NCBI GenBank assembly: GCA_018061065.1
Contig: JAGOUV010000004.1
Span: 1 to 64,000 of the forward strand
Length of the DNA: 64,000 nucleotides
Reading direction: 5' to 3'
DNA from: Candidatus Altimarinota bacterium
GTDB taxonomy: Bacteria; Patescibacteriota; Gracilibacteria; UBA1369; UM-FILTER-53-11
Part shown: one piece after another, positions 2,957-50,142 of the stretch
Layout of the letters: the number at the start of each line of letters is the position of its first letter
How positions within the stretch are numbered: position 1 is the stretch's first letter
Notes under the pieces: generated by a model
The model's database searches: none
What the model saw: only the letters and a program-made list of their open reading frames with translations
What the model was told of the DNA's origin: nothing
Translations under genes and position numbers: made by a program

Positions 2957-3042
2957 CGTAACGCTTTCAGAAGATAGTTGTAATATTTTGCGCATGAGGT
3001 CGTTTACAAGACCGCAACATATTATCCTTATCTCCTTTATTT

Positions 3043-4758
3043 ATGTTTAGTAAGAAATTTCTCAGCTCGGTGGTTATCGTCGGATTGCTGGCCGCGATGC
3101 TCGTTATTCCATCAGCGTCTGCCGGTGGTTCTACAAATGCATCTTTTGCCGTGAGCGCAAATGCGTATCCTGCTAGCGGGAGCCGCAGCGCCTATATCAA
3201 TATGTATCGTATTGATCAGATTCAGAATGGTCTGTATTACGGATCTTTAGCCGATACTCAGTATGTGGGTGCAGGGAGCTCACGACACTTCACGGTGCCG
3301 TTGGGTGCTATGGTGGAATTCGTCGCTTTCAGTAACTCAACAGTTGCAAATGCTGCAACACACTGGACATTCACTTCTCCGCCATACAAAAATTTCACTA
3401 TGCAGGAAGCATGGCAGGGAAAGTTATGTCAGATTAATTTTCAGGATCAGTACAATAAAATGATGAGCAACGGCAGCGAGTCATGTGCCTTTGGAGGCCT
3501 CTCAGTTCCGGTTTCAGATTCAAATGTTGCGGTTCCCGCATCGATCTACGGTCAGGGTGGCGCTCGTGCATTTGTTGAGCTATGGGTCATGCAAAATAAT
3601 AGCCCCTCAACACGCATAAAAAGTGCATCAATTGATGTATTGGACGCAAATGGTAATCGCATTGCGACAACAAACACGGATTACCGTGGTATCGCAGGAC
3701 TTGCTATAGAGCGCGGTCGCCAGTTTACCTTCCGTGGCTACAAGAACGGCGTAACCTATATGGTGACGAGTGGTTTACATTCAGTTTCAGGTGGTCAATT
3801 AGTGGGCGCAGATGGTCAGCGCACCTCAATACTTCAGCTTAATGCGTATCCGCAAGCTGGACAGGTGGTTCCGGTTCCTACGACACTTCCTTCAACTTTG
3901 GGAGTAGCTGTAGAAGGTTCTATCACAGCATTCTCGCAGACAGCGTCTGTCCGCTATACGTTGAATCAGCCATCTACAGTGACGGTTCGCGTTTATAGTA
4001 ACTCAGCAACGACAGCCCCCCAGGTAGTTCGTACGATCGAAAATGGAGTGTACCGCTCTGCCGGTACGCAGCGTGTATTGTGGGACGGCCGCGATGGTAA
4101 TGGCACCTTGCAGGCAAATGGCTGGTACCGTGTTCAGGTCAGCGCATACAATCCAGTAACGGGAATTACACTTTCTGGATCAGCATTTGTTCACGTGAAC
4201 CGCAATAGAGTTTCTGTTGCTTCTGTCGGTCCGATTTCTAGACCGACTACTACGTTGCCCGTTATCTCCACAACATCAATCGATAGCGACTGTGATGCAG
4301 TAAACCCAGACTCACTAAGTATCGAATATATTGCAACTTCAAATAAGTATAAGTTGTCGACCAATGTAAATGGTAGAAAATTTACTTTCCAGATATTTCC
4401 TACTTACGACGAGGCAGTCCGCGCCCGTGACGCCATCACTACCTACCGCTTCAACAAATTATGTTTTGTAGGTCGTGGTGCTACTGAGGTAAATAGTTAT
4501 TGGTTGCGCAGTGGAGGAAGCAGCCTTACTCATGTTCCCTCACTACGTAATGAAGACTGTGTTTCATTCAACTCACGCAACTTGACCTTGTCTGGTATGA
4601 CAAATGGTAAGTACCAAGTTTTGGATGGTAATCACGCGCTCGCATCTGCAGCAAATTACAGCGACGCAATGCAATTAAAAAATACCCTCGCTTCACATAA
4701 CTATTCACAGTCATGTTTTGTGGGTCGACCAGCGCCATCGATGCACTATTATAAATAG
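3043..4758 (+). CDS. secreted protein with FlgD-like Ig domain and two CFVGR repeats
   Basis: A 571-residue exported protein. Residues 1-27 are a clear Sec signal peptide ending in PSASA. The middle is beta-rich. Residues about 285-385 resemble the FlgD Ig-like fold used in many surface proteins (phrases WDGRDGNGTLQANGWYRVQV). The C-terminus carries two related units of about 65 residues (about 420-490 and 505-570). Each begins with a cysteine, has a KY-type strand, and ends in CFVGRG or CFVGRP, with one cysteine pair per unit. Function is unknown; a surface-associated binding protein is plausible. The gene has no Shine-Dalgarno sequence but a T-rich tract just before ATG, and it is followed by a strong terminator, so it is probably monocistronic. 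Confidence 0.75.
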   Translation: MFSKKFLSSVVIVGLLAAMLVIPSASAGGSTNASFAVSANAYPASGSRSAYINMYRIDQIQNGLYYGSLADTQYVGAGSSRHFTVPLGAMVEFVAFSNSTVANAATHWTFTSPPYKNFTMQEAWQGKLCQINFQDQYNKMMSNGSESCAFGGLSVPVSDSNVAVPASIYGQGGARAFVELWVMQNNSPSTRIKSASIDVLDANGNRIATTNTDYRGIAGLAIERGRQFTFRGYKNGVTYMVTSGLHSVSGGQLVGADGQRTSILQLNAYPQAGQVVPVPTTLPSTLGVAVEGSITAFSQTASVRYTLNQPSTVTVRVYSNSATTAPQVVRTIENGVYRSAGTQRVLWDGRDGNGTLQANGWYRVQVSAYNPVTGITLSGSAFVHVNRNRVSVASVGPISRPTTTLPVISTTSIDSDCDAVNPDSLSIEYIATSNKYKLSTNVNGRKFTFQIFPTYDEAVRARDAITTYRFNKLCFVGRGATEVNSYWLRSGGSSLTHVPSLRNEDCVSFNSRNLTLSGMTNGKYQVLDGNHALASAANYSDAMQLKNTLASHNYSQSCFVGRPAPSMHYYK

Positions 4759-4777
4759 TCAGAAGGCAGGCAATCCG

Positions 4778-4809
4778 GGCTCGGGGATGTTTAATCTCCG
4801 GGCCTTTTT
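4778..4809 (+). terminator. rho-independent terminator after the 3043 gene
   Basis: An 11-bp stem (4778-4788 pairing with 4794-4804, two G-U pairs) is followed by TTTTT at 4805-4809. It separates the secreted protein gene from the convergent DUF192 gene. Confidence 0.8.
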
Positions 4810-4817
4810 GCTAAGTG

Positions 4818-5327
4818 TTACTCTTTAAAATCAAAGCGATCTCCTACGGCAACGCCACGCGTGTTCGTCCAGCCGGCGGGTACTTCCAGTGCGTACATTG
4901 CAGGCTCAGTTGATCCGTATGAAGGACACTGAGCTACGTTGCATGGCGTCATGGTAGGAACAATGCTCACCACCTCATGCTTGCTGCTAAAGAAAATAAC
5001 ATCTAGGGGGATCTTGGTATTCTTCATCCAGAAGGCGCGTGGTGCTTCGTCTTCGTAAATAAAAATCATGCCTTTGCCTTCTTCTAACTGGGTGCGCTCC
5101 ATTAAACCTTGCTCGCGTTCATCGACATCATCGGCAGTTTCTACGAGCATCGTGATCTCTGCTTGCTTGGTTTTTAGGACAATAGTCTGGGTGGGAAGCG
5201 TATCGCTTTTGAATTTTTTAACAATCGCTCCGTAGGTTTCTTTTGCGGTATCAACGAGTTTGCAACCTGAAAAAGCAAAGAGACTCGCGATAAGTAGGGT
5301 GACAGTAACGGTTTTTCTGGTGTTCAT
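4818..5327 (-). CDS. DUF192 family lipoprotein
   Basis: A 169-residue protein of the DUF192 (COG1430) family, whose biochemical role is not settled. The start at 5327 (MNTRKTV) gives a signal peptide ending in a lipobox FSGC at about residues 19-22, so the mature protein is probably a lipid-anchored surface protein. The family hallmarks are present: EREQGLMERTQLEEGKGMIFIYEDEAPRAFWMKNTKIPLDVIFF, followed by VPAGWTNTRGVAVGD near the C-terminus. An upstream in-frame ATG would add 22 residues but would run through the divergent promoter, so I reject it. It is divergent from the transketolase gene and appears to share a palindromic -10 element with it. Confidence 0.88.
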   Translation of the reverse strand: MNTRKTVTVTLLIASLFAFSGCKLVDTAKETYGAIVKKFKSDTLPTQTIVLKTKQAEITMLVETADDVDEREQGLMERTQLEEGKGMIFIYEDEAPRAFWMKNTKIPLDVIFFSSKHEVVSIVPTMTPCNVAQCPSYGSTEPAMYALEVPAGWTNTRGVAVGDRFDFKE

Positions 5328-5336
5328 AATGGCCAC

Positions 5337-5346
5337 ATTGTACAAT
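5337..5346. promoter_or_regulatory. palindromic -10 element shared by two divergent genes
   Basis: ATTGTACAAT is a perfect 10-bp palindrome that reads TACAAT as a -10 on both strands. The hexamer ends exactly 9 bases before the ATG of the DUF192 gene on the minus strand and exactly 9 bases before the ATG of the transketolase gene on the plus strand. Neither direction has a convincing -35. Confidence 0.6.
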
Positions 5347-5355
5347 AAGCGGCGC

Positions 5356-6303
5356 ATGACCTCCACACCACTTCCTCTAGAAATGATCGCCACGAGAAAA
5401 GCTTTTGGTGAAGCGCTGGTCGTAGCAGGTGATAAATATAAGAATCTTGTAGTCCTAGATGCGGATTTGACGACCTCGGTGATGGCTCATTTTTACGAGA
5501 AAAAGTTTCCGGAGCGGCACTTTAATATCGGTATCTCTGAGCAGGATTTAGTTGATACGGCTGCGGGTATGGCCATGGCGGGTAAGCTGCCGATTGCCTG
5601 TTCATTTTCGATTTTTTTGACTGGTTTAGCTTGGCAACAGATTAGAAATGCCATTTGTTATCCCAATATGAATGTGAAATTAGTCGGCTCTCACGGTGGT
5701 ATTCAGCTGGGTGAAGATGGTGCTACGCATCAGGCGCTCGAGGATTTTGCCATTATGCGCGTGATTCCCAATATGAAAGTATTCTGTGCCGCCGATGCAG
5801 TTGAGATGAAAAAGATGTTGCCGGCGGTGCTTGAAGATTATGGTCCTGCATATATTAGATTAGGACGTCAGCCGGTGCCGGTGCTCTATGATGATTCTTA
5901 TGAATTTAAAATTGGAAAGGGAAGTGTCTTAATGGACGGTGATGATGTGGGTATTATTGCGATCGGAAGTTTAGTGGGAAGTGCCTATCTGGCTGCGCAA
6001 AAACTCCGCGATGAAGGTATCTCGGTGCGCGTGGTAAATATGAGTACGCTCAAGCCGATCGATGCACGCCTCATAGAAGAGACGGCACGAAAAGTGGGAG
6101 TGCTCGTGACGGCGGAGGATCATCAGACGACAGGAGGTCTAGCGGGCGCAGTGGCTGAAGTTTTATGTGAAACTTATCCACGGACATTCTATAGAATTGG
6201 TATGCATGACCGTTTTGGCGAATCGGGAAAAACAGCGGACTTATATAAGAAGCACAAGTTAGATGCCGACGGAGTCTACGAACAGATCAAGGAGTGGCTA
6301 TGA
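5356..6303 (+). CDS. transketolase, C-terminal subunit (split enzyme)
   Basis: The 315-residue protein covers the pyrimidine-binding and C-terminal domains of transketolase (split form, like archaeal and some CPR enzymes). Hallmarks are RKAFGEAL at the N-terminus, NIGISEQDLVDTAAGMA carrying the catalytic glutamate that activates thiamine diphosphate, and GATHQALEDFAIMR. The N-terminal, diphosphate-binding half must be supplied by another gene, and none is present in this window. The start at 5356 follows the shared palindromic -10 by 9 bases; a longer frame upstream would cross the divergent gene. It stands at the head of a block with prs, rpiB and rpe, so a non-oxidative pentose-phosphate role is more likely than DXP synthase. 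A stand-alone dehydrogenase E1-beta-like role is less likely. Confidence 0.87.
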   Translation: MTSTPLPLEMIATRKAFGEALVVAGDKYKNLVVLDADLTTSVMAHFYEKKFPERHFNIGISEQDLVDTAAGMAMAGKLPIACSFSIFLTGLAWQQIRNAICYPNMNVKLVGSHGGIQLGEDGATHQALEDFAIMRVIPNMKVFCAADAVEMKKMLPAVLEDYGPAYIRLGRQPVPVLYDDSYEFKIGKGSVLMDGDDVGIIAIGSLVGSAYLAAQKLRDEGISVRVVNMSTLKPIDARLIEETARKVGVLVTAEDHQTTGGLAGAVAEVLCETYPRTFYRIGMHDRFGESGKTADLYKKHKLDADGVYEQIKEWL

Positions 6304-6304
6304 G

Positions 6305-6332
6305 TTGACTAAAATGCTAATAGTGGTACTGT
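6305..6332 (+). promoter_or_regulatory. promoter of the 6340 gene (leaderless geometry)
   Basis: -35 TTGACT (6305-6310), 16-base spacer, and extended -10 TGG-TACTGT (hexamer 6327-6332). Seven bases separate the hexamer from the ATG at 6340, so transcription should begin about at the start codon. Confidence 0.6.
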
Positions 6333-6339
6333 CTGGTCT

Positions 6340-6894
6340 ATGGAATTAGGAAAAATCTGGGATGCATTAAGTGGTGATAAAAAAGCCGATACTGTTACTG
6401 AAGAAAGAATTGTTGTTGGTGAGGGTGAAGATACATCGTCATATGTGAGGCGAACTACATCTCGTGATATTTCATCGAGCCCAAGGGTGAGGGCATCTTT
6501 GTCGGAAACGGATTTGTGTGATGATGAATTAGGAGTGTCAGGTTTGGTCTTTCCCGAAAGTATACATATTGCAGCAGATGGTCAGCTGACCGGTTTAGCT
6601 GACGGACTCACATTGGATGGATCAACTCGGGTATTTGCTCTACGTGCCCTACAGAATTCGCAAAGCCTCACCATCGATATCCAGGGGGGTGCGTATGCGT
6701 CAGGGAGAATAGCAATTACAACCGATAGCGGGGCATCACTGTCTATGACCGAAGTCGATGGGCGTGGTTATATTTGTCAGGTGAATCTTCCCGTGGCGAG
6801 AGGTGAGAGGGTTTCTATTGAGCCCCGTCCGCCCACAGAAGTGGGAAGGGAAGCCGTAGATCAGATGGTGAAAGCCATTATGAATGCAGTTTGA
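6340..6894 (+). CDS. protein of unknown function
   Basis: A 184-residue cytoplasmic protein with no recognisable family. The first 60 residues are polar and probably disordered; the remainder (about 65-165) is predicted beta-rich with regularly spaced glycine and hydrophobic residues, perhaps a small beta-sandwich. There is no signal peptide or membrane segment. It has its own promoter. The next gene starts 13 bases after the stop codon but also has its own -10. It lies inside the pentose-phosphate block, with no evidence of a link in function. Confidence 0.6.
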   Translation: MELGKIWDALSGDKKADTVTEERIVVGEGEDTSSYVRRTTSRDISSSPRVRASLSETDLCDDELGVSGLVFPESIHIAADGQLTGLADGLTLDGSTRVFALRALQNSQSLTIDIQGGAYASGRIAITTDSGASLSMTEVDGRGYICQVNLPVARGERVSIEPRPPTEVGREAVDQMVKAIMNAV

Positions 6895-6900
6895 TATAAT
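6892..6900 (+). promoter_or_regulatory. extended -10 promoter of the 6908 gene (leaderless geometry)
   Basis: TGA-TATAAT: a perfect -10 hexamer (6895-6900) with the extended TGn element overlaps the stop region of the upstream gene. Seven bases separate it from the ATG at 6908. No -35 is visible. Confidence 0.65.
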
Positions 6901-6907
6901 TTCCCCT

Positions 6908-7255
6908 ATGAAACTTACCCTGGGACCAAGCTACACTCCTGCAGTGAAGGCGGAGCCGCCACATGTAGAATTTGGCATAGAGGCGCAATCGCTTGCGGAT
7001 GCGATACGTGGTGTTTCGTCGAGAGATGCACGGGGAGTCATGGGGTGGCTAGAGAAGAAAGGTGCGTTCCTTAGTACCGGAGAGCCGCCGGTAACTAATA
7101 GAGAATTCGATGAGGCGTGTTGTATGTCTGATAGTGGTATTAATCCACCACTACGAACAAATTTTCATATGAGAATAATGGATAAATCTGACCATGATCG
7201 TGCGGCAGCAGTTTTGGAAAAGATACGCTCTTTCAGAAAGCGAGGGGAAAAATAA
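6908..7255 (+). CDS. small protein of unknown function
   Basis: A 115-residue protein (MKLTLGPSYTPAV...). The start at 6908 is chosen because a perfect extended -10 box sits 7 bases upstream; an in-frame ATG at 6884 would overlap the previous gene and lie upstream of the promoter. The protein is mixed alpha/beta with a lysine/arginine-rich C-terminus (IRSFRKRGEK) and two adjacent cysteines in the middle. No domain is recognised. The prs promoter begins right after its stop. Confidence 0.6.
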   Translation: MKLTLGPSYTPAVKAEPPHVEFGIEAQSLADAIRGVSSRDARGVMGWLEKKGAFLSTGEPPVTNREFDEACCMSDSGINPPLRTNFHMRIMDKSDHDRAAAVLEKIRSFRKRGEK

Positions 7256-7257
7256 TG

Positions 7258-7266
7258 TGATACAAT
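7258..7266 (+). promoter_or_regulatory. extended -10 promoter of prs
   Basis: TGA-TACAAT (hexamer 7261-7266) lies 10 bases before the ATG at 7277. The leader would be only about 4 bases. An ATG inside the hexamer (7265) is in frame but cannot be the start if this promoter is used. Confidence 0.55.
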
Positions 7267-7276
7267 GCGTTCCAGC

Positions 7277-8233
7277 ATGCCAAGTACACATATGCAACAC
7301 ATAAAACTCTTTGGTGGAAGCTCGCATCCTGCACTGACACAATCAGTCGCAAAGTTACTTAAAATAAAATCATCACCGCTCGATATTCGCCGTTTTGCCT
7401 CAAACGAGATTTATGCAAAGTCTGTTGAGAGCGTTCGTAATAGTGATGTCTATATTATCCAAAGTGCAACCCAGGCCGTGAACGAAGAACTTATGGAGTT
7501 GTTTATTCTACTTGATAGTTTTAAGAGATCTTTTGCTGCAAAAATTCATGTTATCATGCCGTATTTTCCTTATGCACGTCAGGATCGTGTGGCTTCTCCA
7601 CGCGAGCCGATTTCAGCTAAGTTGGTGGCGAATTTATTGGCCAAGGCAGGAGCTGATCATCTCATAACATTTACTCTGCACAGTGAGCAGGAGCAGGGAT
7701 TCTTTGATTTCCCCGTTGATAATCTCGCGGCTCGTCAGTTGTTTGTTGAATATTTCAGAAAGAAAAAGTTGAAGAATTTAACCGTTGTGGCGCCAGATGT
7801 AGGAAGTGCTAAAGAGGCTCAACGTTTTGCAAAACTACTCGGTGCAGATTTGGCGATTTTGAATAAAATTCGTTCCGCTCACAATGTTTCTGAAGTGACT
7901 CATTTGGTGGGAACAGTGGAGGGACGCACCTGTATTATGTATGACGATTTGGTCGATACGGCAGGCAGCGTGGCTAATGGCGCAAGCGTTCTACGTAACA
8001 ATGGCGCGACGGGAGATATTTACATGGTCGCAACTCATCCGGTACTTTCTCGCGATGCGGCAGATAAATTAGCAAGCGCGAAGTTTAAGGAAATTATTTT
8101 CACCGATACGATTCCACTTCCAAAAGAAAAGATTCTTAAAAACATGACAATTTTGTCTGTGGCACCACTTCTCGCAAAGGTTATTGAAAGTGTTCACACG
8201 GGAAAAGCACTGACACCGCTCATGAATCCGTGA
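7277..8233 (+). CDS. prs: ribose-phosphate pyrophosphokinase (PRPP synthetase)
   Basis: Makes phosphoribosyl pyrophosphate from ribose-5-phosphate and ATP, feeding purine, pyrimidine and NAD synthesis. The 318-residue protein has the family's N-terminal GGSSHPAL, the metal/ATP loop YFPYARQDR, a flexible-loop equivalent HSEQEQGFFDFPVDNL, and the PRPP-binding loop IMYDDLVDTAGSVANGA. Length matches the class I enzyme. The start at 7277 (MPSTHMQHIK) agrees with the promoter; MQHIK is an alternative. rpiB and rpe follow directly, so the three genes form a ribose-5-phosphate to PRPP block. Confidence 0.95.
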   Translation: MPSTHMQHIKLFGGSSHPALTQSVAKLLKIKSSPLDIRRFASNEIYAKSVESVRNSDVYIIQSATQAVNEELMELFILLDSFKRSFAAKIHVIMPYFPYARQDRVASPREPISAKLVANLLAKAGADHLITFTLHSEQEQGFFDFPVDNLAARQLFVEYFRKKKLKNLTVVAPDVGSAKEAQRFAKLLGADLAILNKIRSAHNVSEVTHLVGTVEGRTCIMYDDLVDTAGSVANGASVLRNNGATGDIYMVATHPVLSRDAADKLASAKFKEIIFTDTIPLPKEKILKNMTILSVAPLLAKVIESVHTGKALTPLMNP

Positions 8234-8239
8234 TATACT
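8231..8239 (+). promoter_or_regulatory. extended -10 promoter of rpiB (leaderless GTG)
   Basis: TGA-TATACT (hexamer 8234-8239) overlaps the prs stop codon. The GTG start of rpiB at 8246 follows after 6 bases, so the start codon would be the first transcribed triplet. A nearer ATG (8242) is in the wrong frame. Confidence 0.6.
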
Positions 8240-8245
8240 GTATGG

Positions 8246-8692
8246 GTGAATCCAACTGTATATTTCGGTTCTGACCATGCTGGCCTGGAACTCAAAAATC
8301 AATTAAAGAAGCATTTGGAAGAACAGGGAACGAAGGTTATTGATCTTGGTGCTTTTGCTGTAGAACCGCCTACTGACTATCCTGATATTGCACATGAGGT
8401 TGCAGAAAAGATACGTGAGAATAATGGTGTCCGTGGCATTTTGGTATGTGGAACAGGAATTGGTATGTGTATGACTGCAAATAAAACTCAGGGCGTTCGC
8501 GCCGCAAGCTGTGAATCGGTACAGACAGTAGAGATGACCCGCCGCCATAACGATGCAAATATTTTATGTCTTGGTGGTCGCGTATTGGAACCAAAACTTG
8601 CGCACCAAATGGTAGATGTTTTTATGAGCACGCCATTTGAAGACGGAGAACGTCATGCCCGCCGCGTGAAGAAAATAGACAAGAAAAAATAA
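8246..8692 (+). CDS. rpiB: ribose-5-phosphate isomerase B
   Basis: Interconverts ribulose-5-phosphate and ribose-5-phosphate. The 148-residue protein begins with the family signature VYFGSDHAGLELK and has GTGIGMCMTANK, the loop with the catalytic cysteine-type residue and phosphate contacts, plus RRHNDANILCLGGR. It uses a GTG start, fixed by the alignment to the family N-terminus and by a promoter 6 bases upstream. rpe starts 5 bases after its stop codon, so the two are cotranscribed. Confidence 0.95.
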   Translation: MNPTVYFGSDHAGLELKNQLKKHLEEQGTKVIDLGAFAVEPPTDYPDIAHEVAEKIRENNGVRGILVCGTGIGMCMTANKTQGVRAASCESVQTVEMTRRHNDANILCLGGRVLEPKLAHQMVDVFMSTPFEDGERHARRVKKIDKKK

Positions 8693-8697
8693 TTCCC

Positions 8698-9360
8698 ATG
8701 CCAACCGAAAATAAAATCCTCATTGCGCCGTCTATCCTCTCTGCGGATTTTGGCAAACTTAATGAAGAGATTGTATCGGTGCAGCAGTACGCTGACATGA
8801 TGCATGTTGATATTATGGATGGGCATTTTGTGCCGAATATTACTTTTGGTGCGCCGGTGGTGGAGCGCATCCGTACTACACTTCCGATTGATGTGCATTT
8901 GATGATCGAGCATCCAGAAAATTTTGTGGAAGATTTTACAAAGGCATTGGAAAAAGCTCATGGCAGAAAAGATGACTGTTATATCACCGTCCATGCGGAG
9001 GCGTGCGTGCATCTGCATCGTGTACTCCAGCAAATTCGCGCGCTTGGGGTGAAGCCGGCTGTTGCATTGAACCCTGCCTCACCACTTGAGATGATCGAGT
9101 ATGTTTTAGATGACGTGGAGATGGTGCTGCTCATGACGGTCAATCCTGGATTTGGCGGTCAGAAGTTTATTGAGGCTGTTTTGCCAAAAGTTCGTCAGCT
9201 CCGTGCCATGCGTCCAAACCTGAACATTCAGGTGGATGGGGGGGTGAATGATAAAACGGCTCATAAAGTGATTGCTGCAGGTGCAAATATCCTTGTTGCG
9301 GGGTCGTATGTCTTTGGTGCATCAGATCGCGCTGACGCAATCAGGGGTCTGCGAATCTGA
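8698..9360 (+). CDS. rpe: ribulose-phosphate 3-epimerase
   Basis: Interconverts ribulose-5-phosphate and xylulose-5-phosphate. The 220-residue TIM-barrel protein shows the expected motifs: IAPSILSADFGKL at the N-terminus, MHVDIMDGHFVPNITFG with metal-binding His and Asp, DVHLMIEHPE, MTVNPGFGGQKF, and QVDGGVNDKTA. Length is normal. It is encoded 5 bases after rpiB with no own promoter visible. Confidence 0.96.
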   Translation: MPTENKILIAPSILSADFGKLNEEIVSVQQYADMMHVDIMDGHFVPNITFGAPVVERIRTTLPIDVHLMIEHPENFVEDFTKALEKAHGRKDDCYITVHAEACVHLHRVLQQIRALGVKPAVALNPASPLEMIEYVLDDVEMVLLMTVNPGFGGQKFIEAVLPKVRQLRAMRPNLNIQVDGGVNDKTAHKVIAAGANILVAGSYVFGASDRADAIRGLRI

Positions 9361-44720: not shown

Positions 44721-46928
44721 TTAGATAAAGTGTTTTCCGTAGCTGCGTGTCGTAAGTCTGCTGTCCATGAGGTAGCAGGTTTTTTGTGGCGCGTGCGAGA
44801 GGCGAGCGAACTGCCAGAGTATGTGGCGCAGTTTCATGATGGCACGGGGGAGTGAATACTGATCGAACGCATTTTCACACAAGTTACTGCGGGCGCTCAC
44901 TACCGGATCAGATGGTGGGTCAAACGGTATTTTCTGAAATGCCATGGTGTTGATATGGCGGATGACATCGAGATGTTGGGGCAGGCTATGCGGAGTGAGG
45001 AACAGCACACTGTGGTCGGGATCGTGCAAAAAGAGCGTGGCAGTTTTTCCACTTCCGCCTGAGGTGCCGGCGGCGTAGAGGTGAACATCGCGAGATTCAC
45101 AAAAACTTTTTAAGGCACGGTAGTAGGCGGCGGCTGCTTTTTTTGAACTTACTATGAACAAGCAGCCGCCGCGCCGCTCTTCAATAATATCGGAAAAAAG
45201 CTCCATCGAACGTTTGAAGTAACCAAGCGCATTTGCCTCCGGAAAATCATCGAGCACTTTTATTTCAATATGGTCTCGAATATTACTGTTCTCATCAATA
45301 CGATGCCACGACTCATCCAGAATTCCCAGCCCATCGAGAAGCAATGTGTGATCATGAATAATAATGCGCGGCCATGTTGCGCTCGACTGTGTAAATGCGG
45401 TCTTTAGCGAGAGGGGAGATTTGTGAAATGATAATTCATCTGCAAAATGCTGAATATAGGCTATGTCGTTATCCTCCAGAGTAAAGGCTTTTTGGAGCTT
45501 ATTTCGAAATGCTTCATGCTCAATTCCCGTGACGGCATCTTCCACCGCTCGCCACTCTTTTGAATTACGAGTGTACTCATCTACCGGTACACACTCGGAG
45601 CCAAACGCATCATCTTGTGGTTTATTTCTTGTGTAGAAAATTCCCAGTAGACCCGTGAGTATGTCACCTTTTTCACCTAACTCAGCTTGTAATTGCGCAC
45701 CAGTAAATACGGTAGAAAGCGCCATCGTTCCGGTTTCTTCCAGACAGTGTGCATCGCTGATAATCAATGTCCGCTCATTGAGTGTAGAAAGATGTGTATG
45801 AACATTTTTCCACCAGCTGATGTGGTGCACAAAAATAATTTCACTTTCATCTGCACGCTTTACTTGTTGTTGCCAGAAAAAATCTTGCGCTTCGCTATCT
45901 GCTACTTTGTCAAAAAGCGCATATTCTCCGCGATCCAGTGACACCTCCTCGCGGTCGCCGGTGAGCGTTACCCCACTCCATATAATCATCTTCAATAAAA
46001 AGGGAACTTCAGTGAGTGGTAATTTTTCCTGACTCAAAAGTATCGCCAATTTTCTTGGTGCGAGATAGTAGCCTGGCTCTTTTAGATGTGCAATCGTTAA
46101 CCCGGCTGCCTGTGACTGTTCTTCAAGCCGCTCACGTGTGGAGCGATACGCATAGGCCACACACAGTGGCGTAGTGAGTTTGTTGAGCGGTGGATCCCCG
46201 GCAGAACTTACCAACATCCGATTGTGTAATGAGGTTAGTTCAAGTGTATCGTTAGACCAGTACGTCTGCCATTTTGATAGAGCAGCTTGGGGTGGCGGAA
46301 GATCTAGAGGGGAAAGAGGGGGGACTGCTAGATTTTCTCTGGCATACTCAAATACCACACCCGCTGGCCAGCTCGACTTGGCCAAGACCTCATTCAACTG
46401 TGTTCGTACTTTTTCCGGTAGCGCCTCAATTCGCTCAACCAAAAACATAAAAAAATCCACGGTTGTTTCCGTATCCGCCAATGCACGATGAGAGGTTCGC
46501 TGCACCGGCACATATTTCTTCATAAGCACTTCCAAGGAATATGACGCTTCTTTCACTAACAAAATGCGCGCCAAGTCCACCGTATCAATCAGTTGATTGT
46601 GTGTCAGCGCGAGCTGATTCGCCTTTAAAAATCCCACATCAAATTGAATGTTGTGTCCCACGATCGGCAGGTCTCCAATAAACGTAGCAAGCTCCTCTTT
46701 TATCTGACTAAAATCTGGTGCCGCCGCGACCTCCGTATCAGTAATTCCCGTCAGCTGTATAATCTCCTGAGGAATCTGTACATGGGGATTCGCCAGCGAG
46801 CTAAAACGATCGATTATTATTCCATTTTCCCACTTAACAACACCTATCTCTATAATGCGATCTTGATTACAATCAAACCCGGTCGACTCGATATCCAAAA
46901 AAATGAGTTGCATATTATTTAAAGTCAT
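44721..46928 (-). CDS. DnaQ-like exonuclease fused to a degenerate DinG-like helicase
   Basis: A 735-residue protein. Residues 1-180 are a DnaQ/DEDDh exonuclease: FLDIESTGFD (ExoI), VGHNIQFDVGFL (ExoII), HRALADTETT (ExoIII, with His and Asp). The rest follows DinG/XPD order: a DEAH-like LIISDAHCLEE near 392 and near the end PFDPPSDPVVSARSNLCENAFDQYSLPRAIMKLRH. The helicase key residues are missing: there is no Walker A where expected, the DEAH box reads SDAH, and motif VI, usually Q-x-x-G-R-x-I-R, reads ILWQFARLSH. I infer that the nuclease is the active part. Some Gram-positive DinG proteins are known to be nucleases that lost helicase function. ATG 46913 is an alternative start. Confidence 0.82.
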   Translation of the reverse strand: MTLNNMQLIFLDIESTGFDCNQDRIIEIGVVKWENGIIIDRFSSLANPHVQIPQEIIQLTGITDTEVAAAPDFSQIKEELATFIGDLPIVGHNIQFDVGFLKANQLALTHNQLIDTVDLARILLVKEASYSLEVLMKKYVPVQRTSHRALADTETTVDFFMFLVERIEALPEKVRTQLNEVLAKSSWPAGVVFEYARENLAVPPLSPLDLPPPQAALSKWQTYWSNDTLELTSLHNRMLVSSAGDPPLNKLTTPLCVAYAYRSTRERLEEQSQAAGLTIAHLKEPGYYLAPRKLAILLSQEKLPLTEVPFLLKMIIWSGVTLTGDREEVSLDRGEYALFDKVADSEAQDFFWQQQVKRADESEIIFVHHISWWKNVHTHLSTLNERTLIISDAHCLEETGTMALSTVFTGAQLQAELGEKGDILTGLLGIFYTRNKPQDDAFGSECVPVDEYTRNSKEWRAVEDAVTGIEHEAFRNKLQKAFTLEDNDIAYIQHFADELSFHKSPLSLKTAFTQSSATWPRIIIHDHTLLLDGLGILDESWHRIDENSNIRDHIEIKVLDDFPEANALGYFKRSMELFSDIIEERRGGCLFIVSSKKAAAAYYRALKSFCESRDVHLYAAGTSGGSGKTATLFLHDPDHSVLFLTPHSLPQHLDVIRHINTMAFQKIPFDPPSDPVVSARSNLCENAFDQYSLPRAIMKLRHILWQFARLSHAPQKTCYLMDSRLTTRSYGKHFI

Positions 46929-47883: not shown

Positions 47884-50142
47884 TCAGCCAATTTCACCCT
47901 TTTTTACCGCTGGGGTCTTTTGTTCAGTAAGTTCTATAGGAACGCCGTTATCAGGTACATAGACGTAAGGATTACCTCCACCAATAAAATCACCCTTTTC
48001 TTCACTGTCCCATACATCTCCTAACGTACTTCGTTCCGAATTGAGCCTCAAGACTTGTTTGAGAAAATCACTTCCAAGTGACTCATCAAAATTTGTATAT
48101 CCCACTTGGCCATATTCAGCAGAGCCTGCGCTTATAAAAGACGCAGCCTTTTTATCTTTCAGCTTGTCATATATGGAGCGAACAAAATTATGATTATAGC
48201 AAGAGGCAAGTATAACGATATCTTTTGATATTGCTTCTGCTCCAAACTTTTCACTTCGTTTTGCCCAGGCCTCTGCAAAGTCCTCATCACTGATACTCAA
48301 ATTTCCACCAGTGGTTATTTTTTCTCCCGATGGCAAAACTTCCTTTTTTGCAAGCCACAATGCATCTGGACTTCCATGGCCTCTAAAAATAAAGGTTGCT
48401 GGGGGTGGCATTTCTTGAATATTTATGAGTGCTGCGTCTCGAGCTTTCTTTAACTCTTCCGTAGTATTATTTTGTGCTACATCATGGTAGAAAGCCAATG
48501 CGCCATCATTTGATTGTTGCTCTTTTAGTCGATCAAGAAATTTTCTACGTCCAAAACGAGGTGTTTGTGAAAAGCCATTTCTAAACTGCTCATTGTGAGT
48601 AATAAGACAAATATTTCTCTTGTAAAAAAGAGGTATGTTGCCATATTTTTCTCTTTTTTCTGCTATATTTTTACACTCGTCTTCGACTGTCTTTGCATTG
48701 ATTTCTATATTTTTCTGAAACAAATTGCGTGCAACTAATACACTGAGGGCAATCTTAATTCTCATGCTGCTTATATATTCCCTGGGGATTAGCATTTGTA
48801 TCAATTTTATATCTCCAGGGCGTAATGATGGATCACTAATGAGTTGATTTGCATCAAAACCCGGATCACCCTGACCCTTGGCGACATCGATGATGTTCCC
48901 CTGAACTCTCTCATTCTCATCTATTTCTTTGATAATGTTAGTTGCCCAAGGTTCATCTTTTATTAAAGCCCTGCGCACCTTCATATTGTCAGGATGTTGT
49001 CTTGCAATATTTAGAATAGCGTCTTGAATTATAGATGTATCTAATTTATCACGTAGTTTTTTTGCAACTATATACCAACCATCAACCACAGCCTCTGAAT
49101 TGGGAAATAGTTTAAAAGCTTCATTCAATACATCCACGGCCCAAGGTTCATCTTTTATTAATTTGTACCGGTTGTTCATATTGTCAGGCAGCTGTTTTAC
49201 AATATTCAAAATAGCTTCTTTCAAAAAAGATACATCTAATGTGTCGCGTATTTCTTTTGGTAGTGAGTACCACTTATCAACCACGTCTTCTGAATAAGGC
49301 AGCTTTCTTAACGCTGTGGTAAGTACTTCCTTTCCCCTCTCTGCTGTTTTATAAAAAATTTTACATGATTGAAGAGTCTCTTCTGGTTGATGATTCGCTA
49401 AGTAATAGAGAATTCTGAATCTATTTTGTTCAGGCAGATTATTGCAAATGACACTCCAGTTCTTGAAAATGAAAGCTGCTTGTTTTGCATCTTCAGCATT
49501 CCATACAGCCTTTTCGAGTATGTCTTGAGGTTTTTCTACAAAATCTTTATACGAATCATAGCCTACTATCAAAACACGATATGCATCTTGGGTATTCTTT
49601 ATAGTCTCTACAGCTTGAATATAATAACTTTGTGCATCGGGTGTATTTTGCCACAGACGGCCTGCAAGTAAGAACATCTCTGGATCACTGGCCGCGAGAC
49701 GTTCGGCGAGAATATTTAGTGCCGCAGCTACCTTGGGCTCTTGCGTAAAATTCTTATCGTATTTTGCAAAGCGTATTAAATAAGGAAGACCATCCCGTGG
49801 ATCTTTATCACTCAGACGCATAGCGGCATTTCCTACCTCCTCTTCAAATTCTGGAACCGTGCTCAGAAGTGTATAATCTTTAAGCAGTAGATCATATTGA
49901 TCTGTTTCAACTATAGTTTTTAAAAATTCCCCGAGCTTCGCTTTTGTACTAGGTAAATTATCTTTGCATTTTTCGTATGCAATGGGATCAAAAACAGGCT
50001 CTTTTTTTGTAACTTCAGAAGTAGAGTTCGGCTGATTCAATCCATTCAATGCATGTTCAATGAGTGAATTTGGGTCGAAGATACTTTCCGCCAGTTTGCT
50101 GGTATCTTTCAGGTGCCCGATTTCTTGGCTTTCTTGCGCCAT
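47884..50142 (-). CDS. predicted clan CD (caspase/CHAT-like) protease with helical repeats
   Basis: A 752-residue cytoplasmic protein. Residues about 55-450 are helical repeats. Inside them a unit of 65 residues is duplicated (NEAFKLFPNSEAVVDGWYIVAKKLRDKLDTSII and the preceding LRKLPYSEDVVDKWYSLPKEIRDTLDVSFL). The C-terminal domain has a strand-His motif FIFRGHGSPDALWL (His589) and a strand-Cys motif DIVILASCYNHNFVRS (Cys648), the dyad layout of clan CD peptidases (caspase, CHAT, separase, gingipain). No signal peptide. Such domains with repeat regions often execute regulated cleavage or cell death, but a partner or substrate is not evident here. Confidence 0.7.
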   Translation of the reverse strand: MAQESQEIGHLKDTSKLAESIFDPNSLIEHALNGLNQPNSTSEVTKKEPVFDPIAYEKCKDNLPSTKAKLGEFLKTIVETDQYDLLLKDYTLLSTVPEFEEEVGNAAMRLSDKDPRDGLPYLIRFAKYDKNFTQEPKVAAALNILAERLAASDPEMFLLAGRLWQNTPDAQSYYIQAVETIKNTQDAYRVLIVGYDSYKDFVEKPQDILEKAVWNAEDAKQAAFIFKNWSVICNNLPEQNRFRILYYLANHQPEETLQSCKIFYKTAERGKEVLTTALRKLPYSEDVVDKWYSLPKEIRDTLDVSFLKEAILNIVKQLPDNMNNRYKLIKDEPWAVDVLNEAFKLFPNSEAVVDGWYIVAKKLRDKLDTSIIQDAILNIARQHPDNMKVRRALIKDEPWATNIIKEIDENERVQGNIIDVAKGQGDPGFDANQLISDPSLRPGDIKLIQMLIPREYISSMRIKIALSVLVARNLFQKNIEINAKTVEDECKNIAEKREKYGNIPLFYKRNICLITHNEQFRNGFSQTPRFGRRKFLDRLKEQQSNDGALAFYHDVAQNNTTEELKKARDAALINIQEMPPPATFIFRGHGSPDALWLAKKEVLPSGEKITTGGNLSISDEDFAEAWAKRSEKFGAEAISKDIVILASCYNHNFVRSIYDKLKDKKAASFISAGSAEYGQVGYTNFDESLGSDFLKQVLRLNSERSTLGDVWDSEEKGDFIGGGNPYVYVPDNGVPIELTEQKTPAVKKGEIG

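Follow-up and report, generated by a model that had tools for sequence, protein, structure and literature searches.

A previously undescribed family of predicted clan CD peptidases with helical repeat arms in Peregrinibacteria and their relatives

The window analysed here is a 64,000-nt stretch of contig JAGOUV010000004.1 from a Candidatus Altimarinota bacterium, whose genome assembly comprises 1.30 Mb in 28 contigs and is ~98.5% complete. One of its genes, at 47884-50142 on the minus strand, is predicted to encode a caspase-fold cysteine protease preceded by a helical repeat arm. The open reading frame is complete, with an ATG start and 752 codons; searches of Pfam, NCBIfam, PADLOC and the PDB gave nothing relevant for its product. 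A first-pass annotation of the sequence had described a caspase/CHAT-like protease with FRGHGS and LASCYN motifs, preceded by helical repeats that included a recent duplication, and had likened it to executors of regulated cell death. Both motifs were found, at His589 and Cys648 respectively. The features of the gene and its product are listed in Table 1.

Table 1. Features of the predicted peptidase gene and of its product (window coordinates).
Feature	Position	Strand	Description
Whole gene	47884..50142	-	752 aa, helical repeat arm and C-terminal clan CD peptidase domain (predicted); homologues detected
N-terminal all-helical arm, ~residues 53-425	48868..49986	-	Fast evolving; AF2 full-length model, low confidence
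Repeat unit 1, 65 aa, residues 281-345	49108..49302	-	About two helical hairpins; has LIKDEPWA
Repeat unit 2, 65 aa, residues 346-410	48913..49107	-	Has LIKDEPWA
Conserved core, ~residues 425-752 (~325 aa)	47884..48870	-	Helical linker and caspase/haemoglobinase-fold domain; alignment A3, AF2, Foldseek
Asp437, DPxL motif	48832..48834	-	Helical linker ahead of the protease fold; invariant in A3
His589, predicted catalytic histidine	48376..48378	-	Right after strand 582-587; invariant
Arg629	48256..48258	-	Helix located between the strands of His589 and Cys648; invariant residue
Cys648, predicted catalytic cysteine	48199..48201	-	Right after strand 642-646; invariant
Glu676, (S/A)EYGQ motif	48115..48117	-	Loop after strand 5, probably equivalent to S1 loop L5; always an acid

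When the whole protein was used as query, matches were obtained in 16 of 99 related genomes, nearly all of them confined to residues beyond ~420. With a profile of this core, 32 of the 353 class genomes were found to carry the family. A sample of 380 genomes from the whole phylum gave seven, of which two lie outside the class, one of the two being a marginal match. The named relatives are Candidatus Peregrinibacteria and Peribacteria, which places the source genome in the Patescibacteria (CPR). Among the papers searched, none mentions Peregrinibacteria together with caspase. The core defines a previously undescribed protein family that is almost confined to one lineage (Peregrinibacteria and relatives). 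Incomplete genomes may be part of the cause of its patchy distribution.

Conservation within the family is concentrated on very few positions. In the core alignment A3 (22 sequences, mean column identity 25%), only Asp437, Pro581, Thr583, His589, Arg629 and Cys648 are invariant. Each of the 32 distinct members whose sequence covers the two sites retains both His589 and Cys648, at identities down to ~20%, and loss of both residues, the outcome that would have counted against a protease, was seen in none of them. These members include L035, which comes from another class, and three from genomes that read TGA as an amino acid. The family members L052, L058 and L059 can be read at full length only if TGA is translated, a situation that resembles the one in recoded Gracilibacteria. 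Both motifs are also present in L087, a divergent member from the source's own family-level group. The residue following the histidine is Gly in most members, and Ala or Ser in L006, L016 and L035. In the loop after strand 5, every member covering the (S/A)EYGQ motif has an acid (Asp in L016), the neighbouring residue being usually aromatic.

The fold of the core was predicted with AF2 from the window core and nine relatives, and the order of strands and helices was read from DSSP. The model has a mean pLDDT of 78.9 and a pTM of 0.83, with means of 88 and 85 in the ten-residue blocks around His589 and Cys648. Along the chain, strands 1 and 2 and a helix lead to strand 3 and His589; small strands in hairpins and a further helix lead to strand 4 and Cys648, which are followed by a helix and strand 5. 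In the caspase/haemoglobinase fold of clan CD, the histidine follows strand 3 and the cysteine follows strand 4 (PMC4357240). The topology of the model agrees with this description and bears out the strand contexts originally proposed for the two residues. A Foldseek search of the PDB with the core model returned the SAVED-CHAT protease first (2.4e-4), followed by caspases, and then by legumain and a metacaspase; the six matches under E 0.001 are each SAVED-CHAT or a caspase. TM-scores normalised by target length are modest, 0.27-0.54 among the best ten PDB matches. Against viral structures three matches fell under 0.001, two of them named caspase or metacaspase and one unnamed. When the PDB was searched by sequence, neither single proteins nor profiles gave a relevant match. 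Taken together, the invariant His/Cys pair, the predicted topology and the structural matches make it very probable that the protein is active as a clan CD peptidase, and this part of the original proposal is well supported. In conflict systems, many caspase-like domains that occupy the effector position lack activity (PMC7159879), and the core could likewise be a caspase-fold scaffold that has lost its activity; with the histidine and the cysteine unvarying in 32 members, this is highly improbable.

The core fits no curated family of the clan. The CHAT model PF12770 had no match in the source's own genome, in the window protein or in 22 cores of the family, and membership of CHAT was rejected. 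The term CHAT-like, as first applied, therefore fails in the strict sense, CHAT being one of several remote relatives. In an hhalign comparison with real CHAT domains, His was aligned with His and Cys with Cys, albeit weakly (E 0.0014, probability 17%). The window protein has the clan CD fold in common with the SAVED-CHAT protease (PDB 8tl0), its top Foldseek match, and resembles TPR-CHAT/Csx29 in that helical repeats are joined to a protease. Unlike these proteins, it has no recognisable TPR, and no SAVED, gRAMP or CRISPR partner was seen. Caspases and metacaspases/orthocaspases (C14) display an equal order of strands, His and Cys and account for many Foldseek matches, whereas no p10 domain or activation sites were identified in the window family. 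The C14 model PF00656 stayed below cut-off (best E 0.035, in one of the 22 cores). A single member scores 7.7e-5 with the PADLOC caspase model, and three match the NCBIfam caspase model NF047832 weakly (best E 0.003).

In the case of gingipains (C25) and legumains (C13), one member each matches across the His/Cys region. The paralogue L017 is just over the cut-off of PF01364 (24.3 versus 23 bits, E 2.2e-5), while one member reached 17.9 bits against a cut-off of 22.8 with PF01650 (E 6e-4 for its core). The window protein, in contrast, matches neither model and has no signal peptide, and 20 other family cores also lack a match to PF01364. Searching the phylum for relatives suited to profile comparison found none for C13 and no match for C25, for which control genomes were equally silent. 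Such scattered weak matches within one clan are to be expected from a divergent new clan CD family. An exported, gingipain-like degradative protease, digesting foreign protein to feed a scavenging or predatory cell, would be consistent with the score of the paralogue, with an N-terminal membrane segment in L035 and with a peptidoglycan-binding-like match in one member (E 4e-4). However, nearly all members, like the window protein, combine a long helical arm with the lack of a signal or transmembrane segment (for the 752-aa protein, a crude hydropathy scan found neither, nor a hydrophobic N-terminal segment), and export is quite improbable.

The region preceding the core has a very different character. 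In the AF2 full-length model, only helices are found up to ~residue 425, with pLDDT mostly of 50-70 and lower at the start; the helices announced ahead of the protease are thus borne out, at low confidence. No Pfam repeat model scored above cut-off on this arm. It contains a ~32-aa repeat, and half of each 65-aa unit carries a signature close to YKDxPYAxxIL, which also occurs in L005/L023, L010 and L024, these proteins and the window units having been used to train the repeat profile A7. When the arm alone was searched in 31 genomes, the same-genome paralogue was the sole convincing match. In three of these genomes, G001, G010 and G017, the core was matched at 1e-38 to 1e-48 and the arm remained unmatched at E 0.1, which indicates that the two parts of the protein differ strongly in their rate of evolution. 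Not every member requires an arm, since some, such as L022 (393 aa), have hardly any.

Profile A7 recovered the repeat in L087 and, outside the protease family, gave independent matches to L078, L079 and L093, in which it forms clean tandem arrays, and to L080. The product of L080:694-1806 has a thioredoxin-like domain fused to a YKDxPYAxxIL-type repeat. In L078:190-2319, L079:262-2502 and L093:3-1649, a different conserved domain, marked by the motifs HRGHS and GSCGG, comes after the repeat arrays. These proteins share ~30% identity with hypothetical proteins on Azospirillum plasmids (L094-L096), and their domain belongs to no Pfam or NCBIfam family. It is possibly a second caspase-like enzyme; homology to the window core was not supported by profile comparison (probability 2.6%). 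One could imagine that Peregrinibacteria-type bacteria possess a lineage-specific network for conflict or cell death that is built from modules, in which the helical repeat YKDxPYAxxILEKA would provide the recognition arm of two or more enzymes with a conserved His and Cys, the window family and the HRGHS...GSCGG family, and binding by the arm would trigger proteolysis. We regard this scheme as speculative and rather unlikely.

The duplication in the arm was examined at both the DNA and the protein level. The 195-nt spacing and the 23-nt identical block reported for it were confirmed (48944-48966 and 49139-49161), the block encoding the repeat signature LIKDEPWA. The protein repeat at offset 65 reaches an ungapped BLOSUM62 score of 196, against a maximum of 61 in 40 shuffles. 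Identity between the two units is 127/195 nt (65%) and 34/65 aa, and the codon, too, is unchanged for 25 of these 34 residues. A 23-nt run is unusual at 65% identity (P ~0.002 by position shuffling) and does not date the whole unit. At this DNA identity and a dS of ~0.79, to call the duplication recent was an overstatement. It is nevertheless judged to postdate the split from the same-genome paralogue, because the latter (687 aa) has one repeat unit fewer and its dS to the window gene is saturated. As for selection for change in the repeats, which had also been put forward, dN is ~0.40 and dN/dS ~0.5, with no sign of positive selection between the units in what is a weak test of 65 codons. The part of the idea that stands is the far faster divergence of the arm, which fits a recognition role.

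The window gene and its paralogue, the two copies in this genome, form a sister pair in the tree with a support of 100/100. The paralogue (L063:10970-13090) lies directly behind, and on the same strand as, a gene for a protein with CHASE2 and a class III nucleotide cyclase domain. This cyclase matches Pycsar cyclase models in PADLOC, as any class III cyclase would be expected to do, and the matches were not taken as evidence of a Pycsar system. In L029, two protease copies stand in tandem (5208-6818 and 6870-9005), with very similar N- and C-terminal ends and differing middles. In L023, a gene for a helical protein (1487-2911) is located just upstream of the protease gene (3003-4862), and the two products have their first ~24 residues in common (MNxFGSQNDMEEYEGLDCADEIDA) before diverging; a shared tag or recombination is possible. 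The copy L003 of genome G001, from the source's family-level group, has an in-frame TAG at codon 672, between the His and Cys motifs. Patchy presence, lineage-specific local duplications and decay, as in this broken copy, point to a role that is accessory, conflict-type or conditional and not to universal housekeeping.

The surroundings of the gene were then compared. Along the minus strand, carA is followed by genes for a DUF3352-SLH protein and a metallophosphoesterase, and then by the window gene. On its other side, a gene for an SLH protein is accompanied by one for a DnaQ-like exonuclease whose C-terminus is helicase-like; in this product (44721-46928), the exonuclease is joined to a weakly matched helicase C-terminal domain. 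An association with the S-layer was considered, two SLH genes flanking the locus, and was rejected, as there are 20-56 SLH matches per genome and the excess is unconvincing. No fixed partner gene or operon recurs across 11 loci, and no conserved substrate emerged from the comparison. In PADLOC, the window protein matches no known anti-phage system, and its neighbours match only general nuclease/helicase models and, at the paralogue, the cyclase models. Relatives of the protease family were found in neither plasmids, phages nor viral contigs, and spread by these elements was rejected.

We consider it most probable (about 0.62), from sequence and structural models, that the protein is a cytoplasmic, probably tightly controlled clan CD cysteine endopeptidase with a sensor-type arm. 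It would be held inactive in the cytoplasm until the arm binds a partner, a signal or a substrate; this binding would release or position the protease, which may then cut one or a few specific proteins. Clan CD enzymes define their P1 preference through residues of helix 1/loop 1, loop 4 and loop 5; MALT1 owes its Arg-binding pocket to acids at these sites, one of them on loop 5 (PMC4357240). The ever-present acid on the loop after strand 5 suggests, from the position of Glu676 alone, cleavage after Arg or Lys.

What such a protease would be used for can be read in two ways. In separase (C50), helical repeats are followed by a C-terminal clan CD domain. The window protein has the same arm-then-protease layout, although it is bacterial, much smaller and without a C50 Pfam match. 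This layout and the position of a stand-alone gene among housekeeping genes are consistent with an ordinary regulatory or developmental processing protease, like separase or like HetF, a cyanobacterial CHAT protein that PMC8406250 presents as a divisome component. The family is, however, missing from 321 of the 353 class genomes and so is not essential for a core process, and this use of the protein is no better than a tentative proposal.

The other, a narrower version of the sensor-arm protease favoured above, is that of an executor in regulated cell death or in defence against phage, whose arm would detect infection or damage and whose protease would then bring about death or dormancy of the cell. 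The joining of a variable module to a constant caspase-type protease is the layout of EACC1-associated caspase systems (PMC7159879) and of TPR-CHAT in Craspase, and the patchy presence in the class, the SAVED-CHAT protease as top match among solved structures and the member recognised by the PADLOC caspase model point in the same direction. The match of three members to NF047832, the caspase model for EACC1 systems, is weak. In contrast to these systems, the variable module is N-terminal in the window protein, the adjoining upstream gene encodes a metallophosphoesterase and no EACC1 gene was seen. Moreover, no defence island or known effector adjoins the gene, the family has no relatives on plasmids, phages or viral contigs, and its repeats are without positive selection. 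The analogy with known systems makes a role in cell death or defence attractive. Since the neighbouring genes are not conserved, such a role is no more than possible; we hold it to be somewhat doubtful, and close in weight to the ordinary regulatory protease.

The family adds to clan CD a branch that is missed by current family libraries. In uncultured bacteria with very small genomes, the control of death, defence and host dependence is little known, and a protease family with an invariant dyad, patchily kept and duplicated in reduced genomes, offers a concrete target for testing.
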